From Tyzzerella sp. (GTDB taxonomy: Bacteria > Bacillota > Clostridia > Lachnospirales > Lachnospiraceae), in the NCBI GenBank assembly GCA_017416155.1, contig JAFQDE010000021.1, forward strand, positions 1-64,000: a DNA stretch of 64,000 bases. Direction: 5' to 3'. The notes beneath the pieces were generated by a model. That model was not told the origin of the DNA and ran no database searches. It worked only from the letters and a program-made list of their open reading frames with translations. Within the stretch, counting starts at the first letter, position 1. The number at the start of each line of letters is the position of its first letter. The position numbers were made by a program, and so were the translations under genes. Positions 1 to 12,709 of the stretch are shown one piece after another.

Positions 1-825
1 GATGCGACAGGAAATGAGATTACAAGCACATCCCATGTAGCCAATATGAATTCCTTCCGTTATCGGGGATATTATTACGATGCCGAGACGGGATTCTATT
101 ATGTATCCAGCCGTTATTATGATCCTGAGATTGGGCGGTTTATAAATGCGGATGGTGAGATATCTGGAGTTGGTGGAGATGTTTTAGGATATAATCTCTT
201 TGCTTACTGTCAAAATAATCCGATAAATATGTGTGACCCCGATGGGAATTGGCCAAAATGGGCTACAAAAGTGGCTGTAGGTGTTGGCGTGGTATTATGT
301 GTTGCGGCAGTTACAGTGTTGACATGTGGCGTTGGCACTGCAACATTAGCTGGTGCTGTTGCAGTAGGAGCTGCCAAAGGTACTTTGATTGGAGCGGCAG
401 CAGGAGTAGCAATAGGTGCAGGAGTAGGATATAAAAAAACAAAGACACTAAAGGGAACTGCCGAAGGAGCTGCTATAGGGTTTGGAATAGGAGCCACAGT
501 AGGAGCAGTTATTGGAGGAGGTGTTTCAGGTGCAAAATTTGGTACATTTTCTTCAAAAGCAAGTTTGACGCAGCATTATGATAAACATGGAAGTGAATTT
601 AAAGGAATATATGATAACGCAAAAGAATATGCTGAAGGTGCAAAATATGTTATAAAAAATGGAACATACATACCAGAAAAAAATGCGTATGTAAGATTCT
701 TGGGTTCAAAAGGAAAAGCAAATTATGCATTTGTAGGGATGAAATCTGGCGGAAGAGTTTCGACATTTCATGTGAGAAGTGTTAGTGCAATGGTTAAAGA
801 TGGAATTACGTTATTTGTGAAATAA
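1..825 (+). CDS. Rhs repeat protein, C-terminal part with toxin tip CT1 (5' end outside window)
   Basis: The reading frame is open from base 1, so this is the end of a larger rhs gene that starts upstream. It contains the Rhs repeat-associated core (AETGFYYVSSRYYDPEIGRF and an AYCQNNPINMCDPDG motif), which closes the Rhs shell in this family. A glycine/alanine-rich hydrophobic stretch follows, then a tip of about 85 residues beginning near the LTQHYDKHGSEF motif. That tip is the presumed toxin. Its aromatic and basic pattern reminds me of BECR-fold RNase toxins, but I cannot assign the family. The core DNA site at 84-98 marks the start of the exchangeable part. The next gene, 11 bp downstream, is the likely immunity gene. 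Confidence 0.88.
   Translation, partial: DATGNEITSTSHVANMNSFRYRGYYYDAETGFYYVSSRYYDPEIGRFINADGEISGVGGDVLGYNLFAYCQNNPINMCDPDGNWPKWATKVAVGVGVVLCVAAVTVLTCGVGTATLAGAVAVGAAKGTLIGAAAGVAIGAGVGYKKTKTLKGTAEGAAIGFGIGATVGAVIGGGVSGAKFGTFSSKASLTQHYDKHGSEFKGIYDNAKEYAEGAKYVIKNGTYIPEKNAYVRFLGSKGKANYAFVGMKSGGRVSTFHVRSVSAMVKDGITLFVK
84..98 (+). other. Rhs cassette core site 1
   Basis: CGAGACGGGATTCTA, encoding part of the conserved AETGFY motif. The 12-base CGAGACGGGATT recurs at four further places, always in the same orientation and reading frame and always at the first base of a toxin-tip cassette, while the DNA to its left differs between copies. Here the left flank is the expressed rhs gene. It is a candidate crossover site. 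Confidence 0.65.
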
Positions 826-836
826 AGGGAGAAATT

Positions 837-1199
837 ATGCATGTAGAAAAAATAATTACATTTAATAAACATGACCAAGAAGCAGATTTACTTATTTCTG
901 ATGGGGTTAATAAAGTTTTGTGTTATGCCTATCCTACTAACGATGTGCAAATTAATCAGGAAATAAACAGTGTGTATGGGTTTGATTGTGCAGATATAGA
1001 AAGGGCAAACGAAAACAAGTATGTAATAGCTAAACGTCAGGATTATTATGCTTATTCGTTGACGGGTAAGGTTATATCTAAAAATGTTAGTCTTGTTCGA
1101 GTAGGAGAATTAGAAATATATTTAGATGAACCAATACCTAATGATATTCAGGAAAATGAATTTATAATTTTTAATGTAACAAGATTGGATTTACAGTAA
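837..1199 (+). CDS. Putative immunity protein for CT1
   Basis: A 120-residue soluble protein, rich in acidic residues, with no signal peptide or membrane segment. It starts 11 bp after the Rhs stop and has a clear ribosome site (AGGGAG). I do not recognise the fold. The immunity role is inferred from position alone: in Rhs and other polymorphic toxin systems the gene directly after the toxin tip encodes the cognate inhibitor. Confidence 0.6.
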   Translation: MHVEKIITFNKHDQEADLLISDGVNKVLCYAYPTNDVQINQEINSVYGFDCADIERANENKYVIAKRQDYYAYSLTGKVISKNVSLVRVGELEIYLDEPIPNDIQENEFIIFNVTRLDLQ

Positions 1200-1294
1200 A
1201 AAGTCATGTTTCATATCAGTTTTTAATTGAGTTGAAAATTTGTTTAAAGTCCTAATGATTTTTGGAGGATATTAGTAAAAGAAGGTTGATAGCA

Positions 1295-1485
1295 AGGTTT
1301 CAGGATTTTTCCTGATAAGTGCCTTTGGGCTATCCAAAGGCGTTGCTTGCTAGTATAGTGTATTCGCTTTGACAACAAATACACTCTGCAAAGTTTAAAA
1401 TTGGGCTTCGATTTATGCCTTTCAAGTGAGGAAACAGATAAGAGTGAATGCTCTGTATCTGTTTTTCTCACGTAAGGAGGCATGT
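1295..1485 (+). promoter_or_regulatory. Repeated structured leader, copy 1
   Basis: About 190 bases before the small gene and recombinase, closely repeated at 6463-6652. It can form three stem-loops: 1300-1315 (TCAGGA/TCCTGA), 1321-1341 (GCCTTTGG/CCAAAGGC) and a long one at 1426-1471 (GTGAG, AAACAGAT and AGAG pairing with CTCT, ATCTGTTT and CTCAC). The last ends three bases before the AAGGAGG ribosome site, so it could control expression by attenuation or by hiding the ribosome site. This role is inferred from conservation and structure. Confidence 0.5.
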
Positions 1486-1680
1486 ATGAAAAAAGTTAAA
1501 TTAGATGTTACAGAGAAGTTTATTGGTGCACGCGACTTGGAAGATATTCTTATATCAGCCTTTCAAACCGAGTTGTCTGTGTTGAAAAATGACGAAATAT
1601 CCGTTATAATGAAACCAACCAAACAGTCTCAGGATTCATTTTGTTCCGGAAAGGAATTAGGAAATGGAACAAATGAATAA
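1486..1680 (+). CDS. Small protein preceding serine recombinase, copy 1
   Basis: A 64-residue protein beginning MKKVKLDVTEKF. I place the start at 1486 because AAGGAGG lies at 1474-1480 and because the second copy (6653) starts at the same residue; a longer reading frame upstream is not supported. Its last 17 bases overlap the recombinase start, so the two are probably translationally coupled. The family is unknown to me. A role as an accessory or directionality factor of the recombinase is possible but is only a guess from position. Confidence 0.7.
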   Translation: MKKVKLDVTEKFIGARDLEDILISAFQTELSVLKNDEISVIMKPTKQSQDSFCSGKELGNGTNE

Positions 1681-3283
1681 TGAGCAGACAATTTATAATG
1701 CAGCATTGTACTGTAGACTAAGTAAGGATGATGAGCAGGCAGGAGAAAGTGTCAGTATTGGAACGCAGAAAATAATCTTGGAGAAGTTCTGCAAGGAGAA
1801 TGGATTTTCTGTACGCGATGTTTACGTGGATGATGGATATTCGGGTTTGAATTTTGACAGACCGGATTTCCAACGTATGATTGGTGACATTGAGGATGGC
1901 AAGATTAATCTTGTAATCACAAAAGATCTTAGTAGATTTGGCAGGGATTATATTCAGACAGGATATTATACAGAAGTATATTTTGTACAGAAATCTGTCA
2001 GATATATTGCTGTAAACGATGGTATTGATACCAACCGAGATGATAATGATATTGCGCCATTTAAGAACATTTTAAATGATATGTATGCAAAGGATTTGTC
2101 ACGTAAGGTCAAAACAGCAAAACGCCAAAGAGCGTATCAAGGCATGTATATCAGTTCTCAGACACCATACGGATATCGAATTGATCCATTGGATAAGAAT
2201 CATTTGGTGCCGGATGAAGAAGTTGCACATGTTGTCAAAGAAATATTTCAACTTGCACTTGCAGGAAAAGGTTTACTTCAGATTAGTAGAACTTTGACTA
2301 AACAGCGGATTCTAACACCTGGTGCATACAAGGCAACAAAAGGTGATACCCGTTTCGAAAGGTATATGAAGGACAAGGATTCTCTTTTCGGCTGGTGTTA
2401 TCAAACCATTCGAGCGATTCTAAGAGACAGGGTTTATGTCGGAGATATGGTGAATCATAAATATGAGATTGCCAATTATAAAACAAAGAAACGAGTTCCT
2501 ATACCAGCCGAAAAACAAATTGTTGTGACTGATACGCATGAACCATTGGTGAGCAGAGAGGATTTCGAAAGAGTTCAGCAACTTGTTGCTTTAAGGCACA
2601 GACCCAAAAAGCACAATTATGAGAACATTTTTAATAAACTTACTTTCTGTGCCGAGTGTGGTAAACGTATGACAATGATGATGAAGCCTTTAAAGGATGG
2701 TTTGCATCCTATGATAAGGTGTACCAATCATTTTGCTAAGCCGGAAGAATGTAGACACTATCATTATATTTATTATGATGATTTGTATGCTGAGGTTTTA
2801 AAACGAATTCAACATTTAACAAAACAGGTTGAAAGCGGAGAACTACTGAAACAACTACAAAAACAGAATCAAGCACATAAGAATCTAAAAAAGCTGAAAG
2901 AAGAGCAAAACAAAATTCATCGTCGTTTACAGATGTTGAAGAAGATTATCCGAAAACTGTATGAGGACTTTGCAAGCGAACTGTTGGATTCGGAAAGTTA
3001 TCATGAATTACTTGCAGAGTACACAAAAGAGCAGAAGCAGCTGACAACACGATTATCTTCCATTGATGTAGAATTAAACAAGCAGAATGATTATGAAGCT
3101 GATGTACAGAAATTAAAAGAAGTGTTGGATGAATATCTGACAATGGAACATTTAACAGAAACATTGGTCAATCAGTTGATTGAACGAATTGAGATTGGTC
3201 ATCCGGTAAAAGTGGATGGAGTAAGACAACAGGAGATAACTATTGTTTATCGCTTTGTTGGAAGAGTAGAAGAAGTAGATTGA
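1664..3283 (+). CDS. Large serine recombinase
   Basis: A 539-residue site-specific recombinase with the usual layout of the large serine family. The N-terminal resolvase domain carries the catalytic serine S20 in YCRLSKDD and the TKDLSRFGRD motif; the recombinase domain follows (about 165-300), then a zinc ribbon (about 325-365, CAEC...C...C), and a long coiled coil (about 375-455). This family cuts both strands through a serine-DNA link and integrates, excises or inverts DNA between short att sites. It lies inside an array of rhs toxin tips bordered by one repeated core sequence, which makes those cores its likely substrates. It appears intact. The alternative is that it is an unrelated mobile element that happens to sit here. 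Confidence 0.92.
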   Translation: MEQMNNEQTIYNAALYCRLSKDDEQAGESVSIGTQKIILEKFCKENGFSVRDVYVDDGYSGLNFDRPDFQRMIGDIEDGKINLVITKDLSRFGRDYIQTGYYTEVYFVQKSVRYIAVNDGIDTNRDDNDIAPFKNILNDMYAKDLSRKVKTAKRQRAYQGMYISSQTPYGYRIDPLDKNHLVPDEEVAHVVKEIFQLALAGKGLLQISRTLTKQRILTPGAYKATKGDTRFERYMKDKDSLFGWCYQTIRAILRDRVYVGDMVNHKYEIANYKTKKRVPIPAEKQIVVTDTHEPLVSREDFERVQQLVALRHRPKKHNYENIFNKLTFCAECGKRMTMMMKPLKDGLHPMIRCTNHFAKPEECRHYHYIYYDDLYAEVLKRIQHLTKQVESGELLKQLQKQNQAHKNLKKLKEEQNKIHRRLQMLKKIIRKLYEDFASELLDSESYHELLAEYTKEQKQLTTRLSSIDVELNKQNDYEADVQKLKEVLDEYLTMEHLTETLVNQLIERIEIGHPVKVDGVRQQEITIVYRFVGRVEEVD

Positions 3284-3327
3284 ATTAGGAATCAAAGTGA
3301 GAATAACAGCCGAGCAACCGATGATGG

Positions 3328-3353
3328 TTGCCGGGTACATATATAAGTCCGGC
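3328..3353 (+). repeat. Left flank type A before core site 2
   Basis: The bases before core site 2, including GGGTACATATATAAGTCCGG, recur almost unchanged before core site 4 (8520-8546) but not before sites 1, 3 or 5. A small hairpin (GCAACC-gatgat-GGTTGC, 3314-3331) lies at its left edge. It is probably the outer half of a recombinase recognition site. Confidence 0.55.
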
Positions 3354-3368
3354 CGAGACGGGATTCTA
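3354..3368 (+). other. Rhs cassette core site 2
   Basis: Identical to core site 1 over CGAGACGGGATTCTA. It stands between the recombinase gene with its type A flank and the CT2 cassette. The frame of the cassette after the core matches that of the expressed rhs gene, so recombination between sites 1 and 2 would fuse CT2 to rhs in frame. Confidence 0.65.
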
Positions 3369-4047
3369 CCTAACAGGTACAAGGTACTTTGACCCAGAAG
3401 TAGGAAGATTCATTTCGATGGACACAATAGTAGTCTTAACAGCTACACCAATGGGATTGACAGATAAAAATCTATATGCATATTGTGATAATAACCCAAT
3501 TGTAAGAGTGGACCGTAGTGGACAGTTTTGGGAATCAGCTTTTGATGTTATTTCATTAGGGGCAAGTATTGTTGAAGTCTGTGTAAATCCTACTGATATC
3601 TGGGCTTGGGCTGGCCTTGTAGGAGATGCTGTTGATTTGGTACCTTTTGTGACAGGAGTTGGTGAAGTTACAAGAACTGTAAAAACAACTGTAAAAGTTA
3701 CCGATAAGGCGACGGATGTTCTTGATACTGCAAAAACCTTATATAAAACAGCTGATTCAACTAGTGATATACGAAAGGCTTCCGGTTCATATGAAATTTT
3801 ATACAGCAGTGGAAAGAACTATATAGGTAAAGGTAGCTTTAATAGAGCAATAAACTCTGCGAAGGCTCATGCAGAAAGTATGGATGATATTTTATCCATA
3901 AGATGGAAATCTGCACCATCATCCTATGATGCTTTTATTGATGAATATCTTATGCAGAAAAGGTTTGGTGGAGTGTTACGAAGTAGTCCGGAATTACCTA
4001 CATATAATATAATTTGGAGTCCAGGAAGGAATTTTTATGGTAGATAA
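3354..4047 (+). CDS. Silent Rhs C-terminal cassette CT2, GIY-YIG-like nuclease tip
   Basis: An orphan Rhs tip. It opens in the core motif (AETGFYLTGTRYFDPEVGRF), has the YAYCDNNPIVRVDRSG core end, a hydrophobic linker, then a C-terminal domain of about 90 residues with YEILYSSGKNYIGKG, a later E in DEYLMQKRFGG and an N in PTYNIIWSPG. That order of motifs fits a GIY-YIG (URI) endonuclease fold, which I infer with moderate confidence. No ribosome site precedes it and a TTG at 3328 is the only nearby start, so it is probably silent until joined to rhs. Its stop overlaps the next gene by 11 bases. Confidence 0.65.
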
Positions 4048-5047
4048 AATACATGAAATTGTTGATTATAAAGCATTGGCAGATCATTATGTAATTCGAG
4101 AAGGTTATGTTTTTTTAGCTTTAACCTATCCATATAATGTGTTTGATGCAATTTTAATTAGACATCCGCAAAATGCAACATGCCATTCGCCTATTTTGCC
4201 ATATCCTACAAGGAATTTAGCTGAGCATATGGCACTTGTAAATGAGTTCAAACTAGAAAAAGCGGTGATTATTGCTAGAGATATTGAGTTTATTGAAACG
4301 TGTCCATCTTTAAAACATATAAAGATTATTCCAAGTGAAGATGCGGAAAACAGTTTTGATTATTCTCCTCTATATAATATGCCGGAAATTAAGAGTTTGT
4401 GGTGTAAAACTATTTATGGTAAAAATGACCAGTTATCTACAACCATTGATTATTCAAAAGTAAAAGGCATAGAGAGTTTTGGGGTTTATAATCCCGGACA
4501 TTTAAATTATAAGAATGTAAAAACGACCAAAAGCTTGGTTTTGTCTGATTATAGAGAGCATAATTTACTTAATGCATTTTCAAGTTTGGAATTAGATACA
4601 CTTTCTCTAATTCAATGTACAGTGAAATCTTTAGAAGGAATACAGACATCACAAAATATGCAATGTCTGTATCTATATTACAACAGAGCATTACAAGATA
4701 TTAGTGCATTGCTAAGAGTAAAAAAAACACTTCGGGCACTACGTATTGAAAACTGCCCAAAGATTGAAGATTTTTCTGTGTTAGGTGAATTAGAAAATTT
4801 GGAACTTTTGGAACTTTCTGGCAATAACGAATTACCTAGTTTAAATTTCCTCAAAACAATGAGAAAACTTAAGACTTTTATCTTTAGTATGAATGTAATG
4901 GACGGGGATTTATCCCCATGTGTAGATTTGTCTTATGTTTATAATCAAAAAAATAGAAAGCATTATAATCTCAAAGAAAAGGATCTTCCAAAAGGTCAGT
5001 ATGTGCATGGAAATGAAACAATTGAAGAATGGCGACGATTAGAGTGA
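4037..5047 (+). CDS. Leucine-rich-repeat-like immunity protein for CT2
   Basis: A 336-residue soluble protein overlapping the end of CT2 by 11 bases, with its own ribosome site (AGGAAGG). The middle and C-terminal parts (about 150-310) show irregular repeats of the LxxLxLxxC/N type (for example LEGIQTSQNMQCLYLYYN and LENLELLELSGNN), typical of leucine-rich repeats. Its role as the CT2 inhibitor is inferred from the overlap and order. It is large for an immunity protein. Confidence 0.65.
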   Translation: MVDKIHEIVDYKALADHYVIREGYVFLALTYPYNVFDAILIRHPQNATCHSPILPYPTRNLAEHMALVNEFKLEKAVIIARDIEFIETCPSLKHIKIIPSEDAENSFDYSPLYNMPEIKSLWCKTIYGKNDQLSTTIDYSKVKGIESFGVYNPGHLNYKNVKTTKSLVLSDYREHNLLNAFSSLELDTLSLIQCTVKSLEGIQTSQNMQCLYLYYNRALQDISALLRVKKTLRALRIENCPKIEDFSVLGELENLELLELSGNNELPSLNFLKTMRKLKTFIFSMNVMDGDLSPCVDLSYVYNQKNRKHYNLKEKDLPKGQYVHGNETIEEWRRLE

Positions 5048-5128
5048 CCGTCATTTCATGTTTGCTTTTAATTATCTTTGTTATCTATTATTAAATAATT
5101 AAGTTGTCAATGCTGTGGAGTGTGATGT

Positions 5129-5143
5129 CGAGACGGGATTCTA
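5129..5143 (+). other. Rhs cassette core site 3
   Basis: A third exact copy of CGAGACGGGATTCTA. The left flank (5104-5128, GTCAATGCTGTGGAGTGTGA) is of type B, shared with core site 5. The right side is almost identical to the right side of site 1 for well over 100 bases. Confidence 0.65.
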
Positions 5144-5888
5144 TTATGTATCCAGCCGTTATTATGATCCTGAGATTGGGCGGTTTATAAATGCTGATGG
5201 TGAGATATCTGGAGTTGGTGGAGAAATTTTAGGTTACAATCTTTTTGCTTACTGCCAAAATAATCCTGTAAACATGTGTGACCCAGATGGAAATTGGCCA
5301 AAATGGGCTACAAAAATAGCAATAGGAGTTGGTGCAGTTTTAGTTGGAGCAGCAATTGTTGCTGCGACAGCTGCAACAGGAGGCGCGGCAGCAGCTTTTG
5401 CGAGTGCTACCGTAACAGGATTAAAAGCAGCCGCAGTATCTGGAGTGATTGGAGCTGTTGTTAGTGGAACTAAAGAAGCTGTGAAACAATACAAATCAAA
5501 AGGAAATTTAAAAAACTCAAGCAAAGACATCTTGAACGAAGCAATAAATGGTTTCGCTAATGGGGTTATGACTGGTGGAATTATGAGTGGTGGTTCTCAG
5601 GCAATTAGTGGAGCATTTAAAGTTGCTGCAAACTTAGGTGTTCCGACAGGACGAAATGGGGGAGTGGCAATAAGTGAACATATACGAGCCTTATCTCCAA
5701 ATCATATTAATGGATTTGAAAGCGGAGGAACAATCTTGAAAATAGGTAGTAAATATAAAAATGTTAGATTTGATGTTGGTGTTCAAAGCTTGTTCCATAT
5801 GAATGTTCAAATTTCAAAAACATTAAATCGCCATATTCCAATAGGAATTTTTGGTTCAGGGCTTATTGGAGGTGGTATGAATGATTAG
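5129..5888 (+). CDS. Silent Rhs C-terminal cassette CT3, unknown tip
   Basis: An orphan Rhs tip whose first 60 or so residues match the expressed rhs end (ETGFYYVSSRYYDPEIGRF, AYCQNNPVNMCDPDGNWPKW). An alanine/glycine-rich segment follows. The last 80 or so residues (GGVAISEHIRALSPNHINGF onward) form a different, unassigned domain ending in an isoleucine/glycine-rich tail. Only a GTG at 5115, without a ribosome site, could start it on its own, so it is likely a silent cassette. Its stop overlaps the next start by 8 bases. Confidence 0.65.
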
Positions 5889-6375
5889 ATTATCAAATTT
5901 CTGTTTTAAAACATGGTTTCAAATAAGTGCAAAAAATGTGAGATGTAGTTATGAGAATTTGAAGAAGTTGACAAACTTGTTCACGTCCGAACATATAGTG
6001 CTCATTGCCGATGACATAAAAATTGATTCGTCACTTTTTGAATTCCTAAAAAACAATAATTTGGAATATGTGTTTTTAAGACAATATATTCGGAATGTTG
6101 AAGTTGCAGTTAAAGTTCCTATTGACTTTGCAAATTACGTTTTAAAAGAAATTATTAGTAATAATCCAGAAAACATTTTTGTCTTTGATTTAAAAGAGAA
6201 TGAAAAATGGAAAGACAAATTACAATGTACCAAGGAAACAATAGTTAGTAGGGGTAATGCAAATATATTTGTCACCATTGCATGTGACAAAAATTCGATT
6301 TTGCTGATTGCCAATAAGGATGGGTACGATTTTAAAACGGTGTACAGTTATCTAAAAACCAATCTACATGATTAG
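5881..6375 (+). CDS. Putative immunity protein for CT3
   Basis: A 164-residue soluble protein starting inside the end of CT3, with GGAGGTGG just upstream. I see no signal peptide or membrane segment and do not recognise the family. Immunity function is inferred from the overlap with the toxin tip. Confidence 0.55.
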   Translation: MIRLSNFCFKTWFQISAKNVRCSYENLKKLTNLFTSEHIVLIADDIKIDSSLFEFLKNNNLEYVFLRQYIRNVEVAVKVPIDFANYVLKEIISNNPENIFVFDLKENEKWKDKLQCTKETIVSRGNANIFVTIACDKNSILLIANKDGYDFKTVYSYLKTNLHD

Positions 6376-6462
6376 ATTGAGTCAGTGTTACAAATGACAA
6401 TAAAATTAGTAGAGCAGATGAAAATAAAAATTTTAATGTGCTTATATCAATAATTTCAAAAA

Positions 6463-6652
6463 AGGTTTCAGGATTTTTCCTGATAAGTGCCTTTGGGCTA
6501 TCCAAAGGCGTTGCTTGCTAGTATAGTGTATTAATTTTAACTACAAATACATTTTATAAAGTTCAAAATAAGGTTTCGATTTATGCCTTTCAAGTGAGGA
6601 AACAGATAAGAGCAATGCTCTATATCTGTTTTTCTCACATAAGGAGGCATTT
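6463..6652 (+). promoter_or_regulatory. Repeated structured leader, copy 2
   Basis: The second copy of the leader at 1295-1485. The first two hairpins are unchanged. The third keeps its stems although the loop differs (AGAG-caatg-CTCT here against a TGAATG loop in copy 1). The bases between the conserved blocks vary. Stem conservation with loop change supports an RNA role. Confidence 0.5.
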
Positions 6653-6847
6653 ATGAAAAAAGTGAAATTAGTTGTTGCAGAGAAATTTGTTGGTAAGAGA
6701 GACTTGGAAGATGTCCTTTTATCAGCATTTCAAACCGAGTTGTCTGTGTTGAAAAATGACGAAATATCCGTTATAATTAAATCAACCAAACAGTCTCAGG
6801 ATTCATTTTGTTCCGGAAAGGAACTAGGGAATGGAACAAATGAATAA
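6653..6847 (+). CDS. Small protein preceding serine recombinase, copy 2
   Basis: 64 residues, close to the product of 1486-1680, with several substitutions in the first half and an almost unchanged second half. The ribosome site is AAGGAGG. It overlaps the start of the broken recombinase gene by 17 bases. Intact despite the decay of its partner. Confidence 0.65.
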   Translation: MKKVKLVVAEKFVGKRDLEDVLLSAFQTELSVLKNDEISVIIKSTKQSQDSFCSGKELGNGTNE

Positions 6848-7475
6848 TGAGCAGACAATTTATAATGCAGCATTGTACTGTAGACTAAGTAAGGATGATG
6901 AGCAGGCAGGAGAAAGTGTCAGTATTGAAACGCAGAAAATAATCTTGGAGAAGTTCTGCAAGGAGAATGGTTTTTCTGTACGCGATGTTTACGTGGATGA
7001 TGGATATTCGGGTTTGAATTTTGACAGACCAGATTTCCAGCGTATGATTGGTGATATTGAGGATGGTAAGATTAATCTTGTCATTACAAAAGACCTTAGT
7101 AGATTTGGCAGGGATTATATTCAGACAGGATATTATACAGAAGTGTACTTTGTACAGAAATCTGTCAGATATATTGCTGTAAACGATGGTATCGATACCA
7201 ATCGTGACGATAATGATATTGCACCATTTAAGAACATTTTAAATGATATGTATGCAAAAGATTTGTCACGCAAGGTCAAAACAGCAAAACGTCAGAGAGC
7301 ATATCAAGGCATGTATATCAGTTCTCAGACACCATACGGATATCGAATTGATCCCTTGGGCTTCTCTTTTCGGCTGGTGTGTTCTTATATCGAACGACAA
7401 ACAAATTGTTGTGACTGATACGCGTGAACCAACGGTAAACAGTGGAAATTTTGAGAGAGACTACAGCAACAACAA
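6831..7475 (+). pseudogene. Decayed large serine recombinase
   Basis: Nearly identical to the first 176 residues of the recombinase at 1664-3283, including the catalytic serine, then broken. A deletion of about 185 bp after the IDPL codons shifts the frame and leads to a stop at 7418. A second deletion of about 96 bp follows, and fragments matching the region around IVVTDTHEP of the intact gene continue to about 7475. The zinc ribbon and coiled coil are gone. The remaining catalytic domain could not bind DNA normally. Confidence 0.88.
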
Positions 7476-7510
7476 CGGTTTTATCTGTTTAATAATGAGG
7501 AGAAACAGAC

Positions 7511-8509
7511 ATGATGAATCATTCAGAATTAGTGATGTATACAACTTCAGATGGACTTACAAGGATAGATGTTACATTTGAAAACGAAACAGTATGGTTA
7601 TCTATTGAACAGATGGCAGAGTTGTTTCAAAGAGACAAATCAACTATTTCGAGACATATCAAAAAAATTTATGAAGAAGGCGAATTAATAAGAATTTCAA
7701 CTGTTGCAAATTTTGCAACAGTTCAAATTGAAGGTAATAGAGAAGTCGAACGAAATATTGAATATTACAATTTGGATGTAATTATTTCGGTGGGTTATCG
7801 CGTAAAAAGTCAACGAGGTGTTCAGTTTAGAATATGGGCAACTAACATATTAAAAGAATATATAAGAAAAGGGTTTGCTATTGATGATGAACGTTTAAAG
7901 GGGAATGGTGGAGGTAATTATTGGAAAGAATTGCTTGACCGCATTAGAGATATTCGTTCCTCTGAAAAAGTACTTTATCGTCAAGTTTTAGATTTATATG
8001 CAACCAGTGTCGATTATAACCCGCATAGTGAAGAGTCTGTCAAATTCTTTAAAATAGTACAGAACAAATTACATTATGCTGCTCACGGACATACGGCTGC
8101 AGAAGTAATTTACCAGAGGGCAGATGCGGAGAAACCATTTATGGGTTTGACTTCTTTTTTGGGCGAGTTTCCTACACAAAAGGACATTACTATTGCTAAA
8201 AATTATCTTAAGGAAGACGAACTCAAAATTTTAAATAATCTTGTATCAGGGTATTTTGATTTGGCCGAGATTAGTGCTATAGAGCATAAACCAATGTATA
8301 TGGAAGATTATGTGAATCAATTAGATATGGTTCTATCCTCTGGCAATAGAAAGTTATTGCTGGATGCAGGAAATATAAGTCATAAACAAGCAATCGATAA
8401 GGCTAAAAGTGAATATAAAAAATATCAAGAGAATACCATTACACCTGTCGAGCAGGCATATCTTGACAATATAAAAGAAGTTGTAAAAGCACAAAAAAAT
8501 AATAGTTAA
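7511..8509 (+). CDS. RhuM-family protein 1
   Basis: A 332-residue member of the virulence-RhuM family. The N-terminal part (about 20-110) has the VTFENETVWLSIEQMAELFQ and YYNLDVIISVGYRV motifs that mark the family and resembles a DNA-binding domain. The C-terminal part is largely helical with a HGHTAAEVI motif. A ribosome site (GAGGAGAAA) precedes the start. It sits where the 3' end of a recombinase gene was lost. The cellular role of this family is not settled. Its coding sequence carries a perfect palindrome at 7699-7723. Confidence 0.85.
   Translation: MMNHSELVMYTTSDGLTRIDVTFENETVWLSIEQMAELFQRDKSTISRHIKKIYEEGELIRISTVANFATVQIEGNREVERNIEYYNLDVIISVGYRVKSQRGVQFRIWATNILKEYIRKGFAIDDERLKGNGGGNYWKELLDRIRDIRSSEKVLYRQVLDLYATSVDYNPHSEESVKFFKIVQNKLHYAAHGHTAAEVIYQRADAEKPFMGLTSFLGEFPTQKDITIAKNYLKEDELKILNNLVSGYFDLAEISAIEHKPMYMEDYVNQLDMVLSSGNRKLLLDAGNISHKQAIDKAKSEYKKYQENTITPVEQAYLDNIKEVVKAQKNNS
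7699..7723. repeat. Perfect 12-bp-arm palindrome inside rhuM 1
   Basis: Arms AACTGTTGCAAA and TTTGCAACAGTT around a single central base. It encodes the T-V-A-N-F-A-T-V stretch. The second rhuM gene has a palindrome of different sequence at the matching position. Confidence 0.8.
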
Positions 8510-8546
8510 GAAAGTTGCGGTTGCTGGGTACATATATAAGTCCGGC

Positions 8547-8561
8547 CGAGACGGGATTCTA
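8547..8561 (+). other. Rhs cassette core site 4
   Basis: A fourth exact copy of CGAGACGGGATTCTA, preceded by the type A flank (8520-8546) like site 2, and followed like site 2 by CTAACAGGTACAAGGTA. Confidence 0.65.
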
Positions 8562-9276
8562 TCTAACAGGTACAAGGTATTATGATCCGGAAATTGGTAG
8601 ATTTATAAATGCAGATGGATATGTTTCAACAGGACAGGGTGTCTTAGGAAACAACATGTTTGCTTACTGTGGCAATAATCCTATTAATCGTAAAGACCCT
8701 AGTGGACAGGGATGGATTACGGCGTTAATTATTGCGGTAGTATGTGCTGTGACCTTAACAGGAAGTTCCGCCAAACCTGCCAAACCATTACCATATAAGT
8801 CAGCAGATGATGCAGCAAAAGCATTTGTGGAATCAGTTTATGATTCGAGTAGATATATTAGGCATGAATATGGGACAGAGATATATTCAAAGACAATTAA
8901 TGGAACAACAACATATGATTATAATACTCCACGTGCAGGTACTCCACATTCAGTAGGTATAGGAGCATCAACACCTGCGGGTACAAGTTTTGTAGCATAT
9001 GCTCATACACATCCAAATTCAAATAGTTTTTCATCAAAAGATAAAAAGGTCGCGAATGACCTGAAGATTAATGCATATGTTGTGGGACCAAATCTTGAGC
9101 TACAAAGATATAATTGGCTTACAGGAATTTCATGTAATCTTGGTGTAATAACGCCTAATATACTTACTCAATCAGAAAAATCCGCATTGGTTTCACAATT
9201 TAGGATTTCGTGGGATTCTCATATTATAGAGGGATGCGATTTCGGTTGTCATACTATGAAGTGGCCTACAAATTAG
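8547..9276 (+). CDS. Silent Rhs C-terminal cassette CT4, JAMM-like metallopeptidase tip
   Basis: An orphan Rhs tip with the core (AETGFYLTGTRYYDPEIGRF), a short hydrophobic linker, and a C-terminal domain of about 150 residues. This domain has AYAHTHP followed by SSKD, the His-x-His-Pro...Ser-x-x-Asp pattern of JAB/JAMM metal-dependent peptidases; an upstream glutamate (EYGTEIYS) would complete the site. It looks like the DUF4329 group found in Rhs tips. The only nearby start, TTG at 8515, has no ribosome site, so the cassette is probably silent. Confidence 0.65.
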
Positions 9277-9288
9277 GGGGTGGACGAT

Positions 9289-9696
9289 TTGAAAAAAATT
9301 CTTTTGTTACTAATTATGTTACTTATATTAATTACTAGTTGCAATAAACAACAATCAGATACGGAGGAAGATTTTTCTATGAATTTAGAGTTTAAGAGAG
9401 GTATATTTTATAATAAAAATTGGGATGAAAAGGCAGGAACTTATCAGCAAGATGTAATACCAGATGAGCATACAGCGATTAAAGTAGCTATTCAAATTTT
9501 CAATGGAATGAAAAAGAATTCAAAAATGGAAAAATATGTTCCGCAATCTGTTTTTTATGATGAAAATGATGAAATTTGGATTGTTTCCTTTTGGGAAGAA
9601 AAGGAAGTTGATGAAATGTTAACGGTTGGCGATGATTGTAGTATTGCAATGAAAAGAAAAGATGGACAAGTTTTACGAATATGGTTTGGTGAATAA
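9289..9696 (+). CDS. Lipoprotein, probable NTF2-fold immunity protein for CT4
   Basis: I prefer the TTG start at 9289, since GGGGTGG lies just upstream and a GTG at 9280 would overlap it. The N-terminus is a lipoprotein signal (KKILLLLIMLLILITSC) with the cysteine as the lipidation site. The mature part has a DEHTAIKVA motif, an IWIVSFWEE strand and a C-terminal DGQVLRIW strand, resembling NTF2-fold immunity proteins. It follows CT4 by 12 bases. An exported, membrane-anchored inhibitor would act outside the cytoplasm, unusual for an Rhs partner. Confidence 0.6.
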   Translation: MKKILLLLIMLLILITSCNKQQSDTEEDFSMNLEFKRGIFYNKNWDEKAGTYQQDVIPDEHTAIKVAIQIFNGMKKNSKMEKYVPQSVFYDENDEIWIVSFWEEKEVDEMLTVGDDCSIAMKRKDGQVLRIWFGE

Positions 9697-9875
9697 TCTA
9701 TAGAATATTTCAAAAAAATGCTAACATAAGCATCAGAGATATATTAAGATGATACATGGTATGATAGTGTAATTTTTAAAATTACTATGTTGCCTACTCA
9801 ACTTTGACTAAATAGATTACTGGCATCTTATATATTGAGCTACAATCATATTGTCAATGCTGAGGAGTATGATGC

Positions 9876-9887
9876 CGAGACGGGATT
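9876..9887 (+). other. Rhs cassette core site 5
   Basis: The last copy of CGAGACGGGATT. The left flank matches that of site 3 (type B), while the right side departs after these 12 bases (TAA in place of CTA). It marks the end of the cassette array. Confidence 0.6.
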
Positions 9888-9971
9888 TAATTATCCAAGG
9901 TGAAAAAGAATGAAAGCAGAGGACGGTTTTCAACGAGACTATATATGGTTTTTGGCCGTTAATGATATGAC

Positions 9972-9996
9972 AACTATTGCAAATTTTGCAACAGTT
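9972..9996. repeat. Palindrome copy in rhuM remnant
   Basis: The same palindrome as 7699-7723 with one mismatch (base 9976). Homology to rhuM 1 begins at about the left edge of this palindrome and continues to its right. Confidence 0.6.
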
Positions 9997-10044
9997 CAAA
10001 TTTTAGGTGACAGAAAAAGATAAAACATTATGGAGTGATAATAA

Positions 10045-11157
10045 ATGAATCAAAACAATCAAGAAAAAACTTTTCAAATACGCAACAGCACAGTAGATTT
10101 TCTTGTTTTTACAAAACAGAATTCTGAAGATGGGATTGAAGTTCGAATACAAGATGAAACAGTTTGGTTAACACAAGAGGGGATTTCAAAACTATTTGAT
10201 AAGGGTAGAACAACCATTACAGAGCATTTAAAAAATATTTTTGAAGAAGGAGAACTTGAAGAAAATTCAGTATGTCGGAAATTCCGACATACTGCTTCTG
10301 ATAACAAGAATTATAGTACTAAATATTATAATTTAGATGCAATTATTTCTGTTGGATATCGTGTAAATTCCGTTCGAGCAACTCAATTTCGTCAATGGGC
10401 AACAAAAGTACTAAGAACATACACCATTCAGGGATATGTTTTAGACAAAAAGCGATTGGAAAATGGACAAATTTTCGATGAAGAGTATTTTGAACATCTA
10501 TTAGATGAAATTCGTGAAATACGTGCAAGTGAACGAAAATTTTATCAGAAAATCACAGATATTTATTCTACGGCAGTGGATTATTCAAAGGATGCCAAAA
10601 CAACAAAGGATTTTTTTGCAACAGTGCAAAACAAACTACATTTTGCAATTCATGGTCATACTGCAGCGGAAATCATTGTGGAAAGAGCAAACCACAAAAA
10701 AGAGTATATGGGTTTGACAACATGGAAAAATGCACCAGATGGCAAAATTGTTAAGTCTGATGTAAGTGTTGCAAAAAACTATTTATCTTCTTTTGAAATA
10801 AAAGATTTAAATCATTTTGTATCTATGTATTTAGATTATGCAGAACGTCAAGCGAGAAAGCGAATTCCAATGACAATGGAAGATTGGGCGAGAAAGCTAG
10901 ATGTATTTTTAAAACTTAATGATGAAATTATCCTACAGGGGCATGGAAAAGTCACAGCAGAAATAGCAAAAGTTTTTGCCGAAAGCGAATTTGAAAAATA
11001 TAGAACAATTCAGGACAAACACTACCAAAGTGATTTTGATAAATTATTGCTAGAAACTGACACACCATTACTAGATGAAATCGAAGCAATCACACAAGCA
11101 GAGGAAGAGATAACCAATAACAAATTAATCTCTCACGAAGACATCAACTGGAATTAA
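10045..11157 (+). CDS. RhuM-family protein 2
   Basis: A 370-residue RhuM-family protein with the same motifs as the first (ETVWLTQEGISKLF, YYNLDAIISVGYRV, HGHTAAEIIVERA) and a longer C-terminus. Overall sequence is well diverged from rhuM 1, so these are not recent duplicates. It closes the island and is followed by a strong stem-loop. A perfect 13-bp-arm palindrome lies within its coding region at 10268-10294. Confidence 0.85.
   Translation: MNQNNQEKTFQIRNSTVDFLVFTKQNSEDGIEVRIQDETVWLTQEGISKLFDKGRTTITEHLKNIFEEGELEENSVCRKFRHTASDNKNYSTKYYNLDAIISVGYRVNSVRATQFRQWATKVLRTYTIQGYVLDKKRLENGQIFDEEYFEHLLDEIREIRASERKFYQKITDIYSTAVDYSKDAKTTKDFFATVQNKLHFAIHGHTAAEIIVERANHKKEYMGLTTWKNAPDGKIVKSDVSVAKNYLSSFEIKDLNHFVSMYLDYAERQARKRIPMTMEDWARKLDVFLKLNDEIILQGHGKVTAEIAKVFAESEFEKYRTIQDKHYQSDFDKLLLETDTPLLDEIEAITQAEEEITNNKLISHEDINWN
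10268..10294. repeat. Perfect 13-bp-arm palindrome inside rhuM 2
   Basis: Arms CAGTATGTCGGAA and TTCCGACATACTG around a single base. It encodes S-V-C-R-K-F-R-H-T and occupies the position of the unrelated palindrome in rhuM 1. Confidence 0.8.
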
Positions 11158-11165
11158 ACACCCCC

Positions 11166-11207
11166 GCCACACATATATTTCTATAAAAGTATATGTGTGG
11201 CATTTTT
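11166..11207 (+). terminator. Strong stem-loop with T run after rhuM 2
   Basis: GCCACACATATA pairs with TATATGTGTGGC and is followed by ATTTTT. It fits an intrinsic terminator for the island. The T run touches the ATG of the next gene. Confidence 0.75.
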
Positions 11208-11486
11208 ATGGACAAAAAGAATCTCAAATCCCGCATCACAGATGCCGCCGGCATGCCCAAGGATGTCATTCTCGGCGTTCCCATCATAAGCGTGATCGGT
11301 CAGAACGAGGCATGCATCGAGAATTACCGAGGCATCCTCGAGTACACCGACAAACTCATCCGCATACAGACCAAACTCGGTAAAATTCATGTAACTGGGA
11401 GAAGCCTTACGATTGAACACTACAACAACGATGAGATGAAAATTACAGGCCACATTACGATGATTGAATTTCATGAGGGAGGTTAG
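11208..11486 (+). CDS. yqfC: Sporulation protein YqfC
   Basis: A 92-residue protein of the YqfC family (GVPIISVIGQNEACIENYRG, then ILEYTDKLIRIQTKLG and a C-terminal IEFHEG), in its usual place before yqfD. It takes part in forespore or mother-cell development in spore formers; the precise role is unclear. I chose ATG 11208; an in-frame ATG at 11193 lies within the terminator stem. Neither has a visible ribosome site, which is odd. It ends two bases before the next start. Confidence 0.85.
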   Translation: MDKKNLKSRITDAAGMPKDVILGVPIISVIGQNEACIENYRGILEYTDKLIRIQTKLGKIHVTGRSLTIEHYNNDEMKITGHITMIEFHEGG

Positions 11487-11488
11487 CC

Positions 11489-12709
11489 GTGCTTATTTCA
11501 TTGCTTCGATATATACAAGGTTACCTAAAGATACGCGTTACTGGTTATTCGCCGGAACGCTTTTTAAATTTGTGCAAGAATAAAAAGATTGCTGTCTGGG
11601 GACTGGCATCTGGACATAATGCTTATGATATGTATATCAAAGTATCAGGGTTTCGCAAGTTAAAACCCATCTTGCGTAAAACGCAGACAAAAGTATCCAT
11701 CTTAGAGCGCTATGGACTACCTTTCTTTTTTCATCATTATCGAAAAAGAAACCTGTTTTTTGCTGGAATTTTCATCTGCCTTATCATCATTTACAGTATG
11801 ACGTTTTTTATCTGGAACATTGATTTAGAAGGAAACCAGACAATCACAGATAATGTATTGATGGAATATCTGGCATCGGAAAAGATATATCACGGCATGG
11901 CAAAGCGAGACGTGGACTGCGAACAGATTGTAAAGGATATTCGGAAGCAATTCGACGAGATTATCTGGGTCTCTGCATCATTGGATGGCACACGTCTTTT
12001 TATTCATGTAAAAGAAAATGCCGATACGTTTGTTCCGGCTGAGGAAGAGGCCGAACCGAGTGACATCATTGCAGATAAGGCGGGTACTGTTGTTGAGATG
12101 ATTACAAGGAACGGTGTGCCGCAAGTTACTGTTGGCAGTGAAGTCGCACAGGGCGACGTTCTGGTATCGGGAACAGTCGATGTCCTAAATGATGCGAAGG
12201 AAGTGGTATCGCACAATTATGTGACAGCAGACGCCGATATTACGCTGCAGACAGTGGTTACTTATGAAGATTATATTGAAAAAATATATGAGCAGAAGAA
12301 ATATACAGATAAAAAAAGGACGTTGTTTTATTTGAAATTCGGGAAACGTACAGTTCGGTTTGGTGTTCAGAAGAACAAATTTAAAAACAAAGACCAGAAG
12401 ACAATAGAGAAGCAACTTCGTATTGGAGAGAATTTTTATCTGCCAATTTATGCAGGCAATCAAAAAATATATGAGTATGAATTAGAGTCCTTGGAATACA
12501 CCAAGGAAGAATTGGAAACCTTATTAAAGAAAAAATTTGAGCAATATTGTAAAGAGTTAGAAGAAATGAACAGCGTCATTCTGGAGAAAAACTTTGAAAT
12601 TGTGCACAATAAAAAGGGTGCAAAGGCTATCGCAACATTAACTCTTCTTGAATCCGCAGGTATCAGTAGGAAAATCGTTGATTTCTTGCAAACGCCTATG
12701 ATAGAATAA
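11489..12709 (+). CDS. yqfD: Sporulation protein YqfD
   Basis: A 406-residue YqfD/SpoIV-like protein with a GTG start behind GAGGGAGGT. The N-terminal part is cytoplasmic, one membrane segment lies near residues 88-110 (FFAGIFICLIIIYSMTFFIW), and a large outer part of alternating strands follows. It belongs to the sporulation set and follows yqfC directly, so the two are co-transcribed. Confidence 0.9.
   Translation: MLISLLRYIQGYLKIRVTGYSPERFLNLCKNKKIAVWGLASGHNAYDMYIKVSGFRKLKPILRKTQTKVSILERYGLPFFFHHYRKRNLFFAGIFICLIIIYSMTFFIWNIDLEGNQTITDNVLMEYLASEKIYHGMAKRDVDCEQIVKDIRKQFDEIIWVSASLDGTRLFIHVKENADTFVPAEEEAEPSDIIADKAGTVVEMITRNGVPQVTVGSEVAQGDVLVSGTVDVLNDAKEVVSHNYVTADADITLQTVVTYEDYIEKIYEQKKYTDKKRTLFYLKFGKRTVRFGVQKNKFKNKDQKTIEKQLRIGENFYLPIYAGNQKIYEYELESLEYTKEELETLLKKKFEQYCKELEEMNSVILEKNFEIVHNKKGAKAIATLTLLESAGISRKIVDFLQTPMIE

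Follow-up and report, generated by a model that had tools for sequence, protein, structure and literature searches.

Putative in-frame integration of Rhs toxin-immunity cassettes by a large serine recombinase in Tyzzerella sp.

Orphan rhs-CT/rhsI arrays (Salmonella, Koskiniemi 2014; cassettes, Zhang 2012) consist of a full-length rhs gene followed by start-less toxin tips, each with its own immunity gene, and exchange places a stored tip on the delivery gene. The cassettes and their homologous exchange are treated in these two papers (PMC3482391 and PMC3967940), and the exchange in Salmonella is ascribed to duplication and homologous recombination (PMC3967940). Among the matches listed in Zhang 2012 (PMC3482391), recombinases (XerC/D) are mentioned only beside polyimmunity loci. 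An array of similar plan lies at the start of contig JAFQDE010000021.1 of Tyzzerella sp. (GCA_017416155.1), of which positions 1 to 64,000 (hereafter the window) were analyzed. Unlike the orphan rhs arrays, it contains a serine recombinase, a fixed GA junction, and a non-coding half-site. Very probably, judged from sequence comparison, tip-immunity cassettes are inserted in frame into the rhs "ETG" motif, at the GA of its Glu codon, by a large serine recombinase, and the old pair is displaced but kept.

An earlier note on this stretch had reported five exact copies of the 12-mer CGAGACGGGATT on the + strand, at positions 84, 3354, 5129, 8547, and 9876, and all five are present. Only ~0.01 exact copies are expected by chance per 64 kb on both strands (128000/4^12); allowing up to two mismatches, seven are seen versus 2.36 expected. 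The order of the array is rhs/tip 1-immunity gene 1-serine recombinase-P/tip 2-immunity gene 2-Q/tip 3-immunity gene 3-broken recombinase-P/tip 4-immunity gene 4-Q/stub, where P and Q are two kinds of left end and each slash marks a core. The features are as follows.

1–84, +, 3′ end of the rhs delivery part, proposed left half of attB/attL; frame open from base 1; TIGR03696 match at 31–246
84–95, +, core 1; GA at 85–86, the proposed crossover
85–825, +, tip 1, in-frame fusion to rhs
837–1199, +, presumed immunity gene 1, by position and a purine-rich ribosome site; no family match
1664–3283, +, REC1, whole large serine recombinase of 539 aa
3333–3354, +, P half-site of 22 bp, left end of displaced tip 2
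3354–3365, +, core 2; GA at 3355–3356
3355–4047, +, tip 2, displaced, without start signals
4037–5047, +, presumed immunity gene 2, leucine-rich repeats (PF12799)
5104–5129, +, Q left end of ~26 bp, of a recombinase-less cassette; common to 9851–9876, with little likeness further left
5129–5140, +, core 3; GA at 5130–5131
5130–5888, +, tip 3, displaced
5881–6375, +, presumed immunity gene 3; no family match
6831–7418, +, REC2, truncated recombinase, 99% identical to REC1 residues 1–177
8526–8547, +, second P half-site, identical to the first
8547–8558, +, core 4; GA at 8548–8549
8548–9276, +, tip 4, displaced, DUF4329/JAB-like (PF14220 above cut-off, PF14464 below)
9280–9696, +, presumed immunity gene 4; no family match
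9851–9876, +, second Q left end
9876–9887, +, core 5; a stub, no tip behind

Since the first base of the contig, which is also that of the window, already lies within rhs, neither the 5′ part nor the body of the gene is visible, and the first 95 bases of the window have no second occurrence in the assembly. The left flanks of the cores fall into three classes: rhs coding sequence (core 1), P, which is GGGTACATATATAAGTCCGGCC (cores 2 and 4), and Q, TTGTCAATGCTGnGGAGTnTGATGyC (cores 3 and 5). The flanks had been described as differing between copies. This is true among the three classes, but cores 2 and 4 share P, and cores 3 and 5 share Q. The P ends stand behind the recombinase or its remains, and the Q ends behind cassettes without a recombinase. 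Q-type cores resemble the end of a cassette that would belong to another recombinase.

Cores 1 to 4 open the four tips in the frame of rhs, and TIGR03696 is found above cut-off in all four; the earlier expectation that every core opens a toxin tip fails at core 5. The Rhs core match extends ~54 residues past the crossover (85–246), so that every cassette contains, besides the toxin domain, the final portion of the Rhs shell. Tips 2 to 4 are without start signals, as had been noticed before: an in-frame stop begins 30–45 nt upstream, and the possible starts lack a Shine-Dalgarno-like motif. An own ribosome site had been claimed for each of immunity genes 2 to 4. Purine-rich sites are present for immunity genes 1 to 3, and that of immunity gene 4 is doubtful. 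The immunity role of the downstream genes is presumed by position.

It can be proposed that the cassette is a unit of Rhs tip, immunity gene, an optional serine recombinase, and a left half-site. In a circle, the non-coding left half (P, ~22 bp) would be joined via GA to the first codons of its own tip, and this junction would be attP. The ETG codons of the resident rhs would serve as attB, with the rhs coding left half, GA, and the old tip. Integration would yield two products: rhs/GA/new tip, in frame and expressed, and P/GA/old tip, start-less and silent, behind which the old immunity gene would be retained. Cassettes would be stacked by successive integrations at the rhs junction, and those that later lost their recombinase would retain only the left half-site. 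A stored tip could return to rhs if the DNA from core 1 to a P-type core were excised. The picture is one of cassettes captured one after another, not of a store freely shuffled at any core.

REC1 contains Resolvase PF00239, Recombinase PF07508, Zn_ribbon_recom PF13408, and DUF4368 PF14287, all above cut-off. Its best solved-sequence matches are TnpX and SPbeta YokA. It has YCRLS at residue 16 and DLSRFGRD at residue 88, the motifs in which we take the catalytic serine and arginines of large serine recombinases to lie. The presence of a large serine recombinase within the array, noted earlier, is thus borne out, with REC2 as a second, truncated copy.

One genome per species was scanned for relatives, and the best 80 of 148 recombinase-encoding stretches, in 79 loci (L numbers; genomes have G numbers), were kept. 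The tree contains 80 recombinases, from the 79 loci and REC1. Rhs cores were called with a profile built from ten core segments; a first regular expression caught only four of the 19 loci with a link and would have made the association look too weak. By the profile search, an Rhs core is found in 19 of the 23 loci of 44–76% identity, and in 0/56 outgroup loci (905 kb in all). Based on the phylogeny, a clade of 24 members (SH-aLRT 99) comprises all 20 Rhs-linked rows of the tree and four unlinked ones. Fisher's test of clade versus outgroup gives p ~3e-15, ignoring kinship. The link of L065 rests on a partial Rhs core at a contig edge. Rhs-linked carriers are labeled Lachnospiraceae, Oscillospiraceae, Erysipelotrichaceae, Peptoniphilaceae, Anaeroplasmataceae, and others.

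The lineage of the window itself is rare, since the P-end pattern matches two of 397 genomes of the family, this genome and G238 (apparently the genome of L043). With REC1 as query, two of 299 genomes of the phylum pass E 1e-125, and with the L054 recombinase, eight of 296 genomes of its class pass E 1e-120. As an independent test the recombinase queries are void, because loci already sampled are found again: L048 and L052 in G479 and G1053, while L055 and L062 are matched by G768 and G993. Viral contigs contain recombinases of 34–40% identity only, and no exact half-site.

The left end follows the recombinase, and the tip does not. For 15 recombinase copies with a left end 27–184 nt downstream, the identity of the 26-nt left end is correlated with that of the recombinase (Mantel r = 0.561, p = 0.0001), while the first 26 nt of the tip show no such correlation in the same 15 (r = -0.005, p = 0.51). 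Without two near-duplicates and with 22-nt left ends, the correlation is r = 0.472 (p = 0.0006, n = 13).

Because the recombinase-query test was void, orphan tips were used as an independent set. In a search with the Rhs profile of 60 Bacilli genomes not picked for recombinases, 17 matched, with cores starting at ETG. Directly before GA, several orphan tips retrieved by the Rhs profile alone carry GGGTTCGTTTTACAAGGATGTC. A pattern made from it, with up to two mismatches, finds 14 sites in 6 of 198 Bacilli genomes, and the reversed pattern finds none; all 14 sites open an Rhs tip. The mean information at these sites is 1.57 bits at -22 to -1 versus 0.33 bits at -50 to -23. The pattern itself fixes the interior of the block, so the drop at -23 is the informative part. 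Relics of one recombinase type precede three of the 14.

Comparison of 122 distinct cores places the junction from both sides. Where the tip is the same and the left side differs, the first mismatch is at the base before GA (-1) in 57 of 68 pairs. Where the left 22 bases are the same and the tips differ, none of 29 pairs differs before +2. These two limits leave GA as the proposed crossover, and GA is also the most widely kept part of the core (95/122). The sites appear to consist of ~22 bp on the left, then GA, then an Rhs coding half. The attP half-site of an A118-type integrase is 25 bp in the solved structure (PMC3783163), and its closeness to the 22 bp here is counted in favor of integration by the recombinase. 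The exact 5-bp shift of motifs between attP and attB as in A118 is not claimed, the shift read by eye being 4 bp.

The core had been called invariant, and this does not hold beyond the locus, because relatives vary inside the 12 bp, e.g., GAGACAGG and GAAACNNN. A sixth exact copy of the 12-mer in the assembly, on contig 3 (L001), sits in a tRNA-like T-arm (tRNA identity by eye). It was dropped as a further recombination site, and indicates that the 12-mer is not specific by itself. The idea of a dedicated serine recombinase joining tips at the core is kept in a changed form: a recombinase acting at a fixed ETG site is well supported by the Rhs link of the clade, the coupling of left ends to the recombinase but not to the tip, and the GA junctions, but the 12-mer itself is not the site.

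These data also bear on a different origin of the array, by homologous recombination between conserved Rhs cores with the recombinase as a bystander. Homologous recombination is the mechanism proposed for orphan Rhs of Salmonella (PMC3967940), and L048, L050, L056, and L170 contain cores with repeated rhs coding left halves, indicating that such exchange probably also occurs; it may act in addition here. As the builder of the array it is highly improbable. P-type left halves are non-coding, with few bases resembling rhs, and yet their junctions with tips fall at GA; similarity of left ends goes with that of the recombinases but not with that of the tips; and the outgroup recombinases have no Rhs link (0/56).

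The architecture of the relatives agrees with insertion at the GA. In L054, a single insertion, a 2168-aa rhs open reading frame (ORF) runs through the core into a tip, followed by an immunity-like gene, the recombinase, and left end/GA/displaced tip, to which a further gene of its own is attached downstream. L047 is organized likewise, except that its rhs ORF runs off the contig. Long rhs ORFs with an in-frame tip are seen in L047 and L048 (both open at the contig edge), L054, L062, L063, and L169. L044 and L055 are tandem arrays, in which recombinase/tip-gene-recombinase follow one another. The recombinase is in opposite orientation in L049 and in one of the two modules of L048. In G465, one array (L169, L053) includes two recombinases as well as two kinds of left end; its second array, L168, has the same two kinds and no recombinase match. 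The recombinase modules of L054, L056, and L062 are 93–95% identical (L062 is cut by the contig end). The 26-bp left ends of L054 and L056 are identical although the displaced tips that follow them differ, and beyond the Rhs core no DNA match is seen between the tips expressed in L054 and L062.

It could be considered that the recombinases are mobile elements merely preferring the ETG codons of rhs, with tips as passenger sequence and no role in swapping. Only the recombinase module, from the immunity-gene end to the core, is conserved between L054 and L056, flanked on either side by tips and immunity genes that are different in the two. No Rhs core is seen in the available flank of four clade members (L045, L046, L052, and L061), and the genome of L057 has no Rhs core other than its displaced tip. 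However, the insertion is followed by a further tip that has a gene of its own, and the tip ahead of it is fused in frame in the long rhs ORFs. Such a passive role is improbable. A landing-site preference may instead be the origin of the system.

In L053, two large ORFs, restriction-modification-like by eye, lie between the immunity gene and the recombinase (4759–9353) in a cassette array. In L058, a transposase-like ORF on the opposite strand (2319–3566) splits the recombinase from the left end. L057, 97% identical to L058 over the recombinase, is without this ORF.

Alternatively, the array could be a standing repertoire in which blocks from core 1 to a later core are regularly cut out by the recombinase, changing the tip within the population. 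In favor of such a programmed switch, all cores are direct, the downstream tip-immunity pairs are intact, the two P half-sites are identical, and REC1 is whole. But excision to a later core loses the pairs in between if the circle does not integrate again, and excision by serine integrases depends on a directionality factor (PMC3783163), for which the only candidate is a small ORF found here in the window and in L043 and L044. Q-type cores are unlike P. Routine switching is unlikely. The earlier suggestion of crossover between core 1 and any later core can be retained for the P-type cores (2 and 4), with which core 1 is expected to pair; the Q-type cores (3 and 5) do not match P.

Several facts speak against integration of cassettes by the recombinase at GA. 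Of the 122 cores, 27 start with other bases than GA. The Glu codon that contains GA is conserved, and the absence of differences before +2 is therefore partly forced by coding, and the core pairs are non-independent, some of them comparing two rhs-type left halves. The covariation set was chosen by hand, leaving out L048-REC1, L049, L050, L058, L059, L062, L063, L065, and REC2 because they face the other way, are interrupted by an insertion, have an rhs-like left half, or are truncated or cut by a contig end, and a GGNTAC-like hexamer is absent from four or five of the 13 left ends. Its mirror hexamer ([GT]TA[TA]CC at +17 to +22), expected in the right half-site, is present in only 12 of 36 cores of recombinase loci. 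Of 49 other Rhs loci, two contain it, and these two lie in G768, the L055 genome (Fisher p = 0.0006 versus recombinase loci), and as a motif of the right half-site it is suggestive only.

Among the relatives, the absence of an Rhs core from the flanks of L045, L046, L052, and L061 also counts against the link, the flanks of L045 and L046 being short. L050 has rhs-like left halves at all four cores. L057 comes from a complete Mycoplasmatota genome, so its sole Rhs core, a displaced tip, leaves no rhs gene to integrate into; L057 is either a remnant or an element without its target. The left end of L049 is unlike that of L048 despite a near-identical recombinase, apparently after deletion. Most loci are from metagenome assemblies. 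In the genomes compared, one per species, no recombination, empty site, circle, or junction variant is seen. Toxicity is suggested by architecture: one of 24 scanned tips (four of the window and 20 of relatives) is above a Pfam cut-off, namely tip 4 with DUF4329. Below the cut-off are GIY-YIG in L048, a 5′-3′ exonuclease fold in L043, Gly-zipper, and prePAAR. Against solved structures, the four window tips matched the edge of the Rhs/Tc core and a few weak, probably chance, entries.

The recombinase module of the window contains further features ahead of the recombinase.

1294–1485, +, leader of the recombinase module, conserved; contains two short inverted repeats (by eye)
1486–1680, +, 64-aa ORF overlapping the recombinase start
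6653–6847, +, second copy of the 64-aa ORF, overlapping the REC2 start

Positions 1294–2192 and 6462–7359 are 93.5% identical, and the leader is repeated at 6462–6650, ahead of the second recombinase module. L043 has leader copies at 2933–3019 and 4846–4933; the repeated leader is also present where no recombinase follows. A search of Rfam gave no match within positions 1–12000 of the window, leader included. Small ORFs similar to the 64-aa ORF lie ahead of the recombinase in L043 and L044 (by eye). As a guess, this ORF might encode the directionality factor. RhuM-like genes lie at 7511–8509, between the broken recombinase and the P end, and at 10045–11157, just after core 5. The latter gives a strong PF13310 match. 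The relatedness of the former to RhuM was judged by eye, and it has no useful NCBIfam match.

Movement of polymorphic tips between delivery genes has so far rested on homologous recombination and on inference from cassettes. In the open-access literature (subscription literature mostly lies outside it), no description of serine or site-specific recombination of Rhs, WapA, or polymorphic toxin tips is found among the matches listed, and the terms serine recombinase and serine integrase are absent from open-access papers on Rhs and polymorphic toxins, again among the matches listed. If tip exchange in Gram-positive bacteria were the work of a dedicated enzyme acting at a defined site, it could be tested directly. 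The model would explain how old immunity is kept while the weapon changes. It would also be a natural example of site-specific recombination exchanging a protein domain in frame.

We lean towards regarding these cassettes as an undescribed class of mobile element with a half-coding site. The edge of such an element would encode the C-terminal domain of a host protein, integration would take place via one dinucleotide inside a codon, and each arrival would re-arm the delivery gene in frame and archive the previous weapon with its antidote. Several recombinase lineages, each with its own ~22-bp half-site, would represent the class in Bacillota and Mycoplasmatota.

Among other known systems, the rAID clusters of Bacteroidales are similar in that a recombinase adjoins arrayed immunity genes, between which conserved motifs lie (PMC12247911). 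They differ in a predicted tyrosine recombinase and in orphan immunity genes, and the excerpts of that paper make no mention of tips or of fusion to a delivery gene (PMC12247911). The recombinase of the window is of the serine type, and tips are present.

In shufflons and in the inversion of phage tail fibres, a surface or delivery protein likewise receives a different C-terminal end through a site-specific recombinase. These act by inversion at inverted sites, whereas all five cores here are direct, on the + strand, and the model is one of integration and excision. In integrons, promoter-less cassettes are stacked downstream of a fixed integration point by a tyrosine integrase using attC hairpins. 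The cassettes of integrons are not known to be fused in frame to a host protein, and the window recombinase is of the serine type.

The recombinases TnpX/TndX and that of SPbeta (YokA/SprA) are like REC1 in domain make-up and include its best solved-sequence matches, and the proposed crossover at GA is also that of TnpX/TndX. SPbeta interrupts the host gene spsM (PMC4191935). There, the gene is interrupted and is restored on excision, while insertion here leaves an open chimeric gene with a changed C-terminal part.

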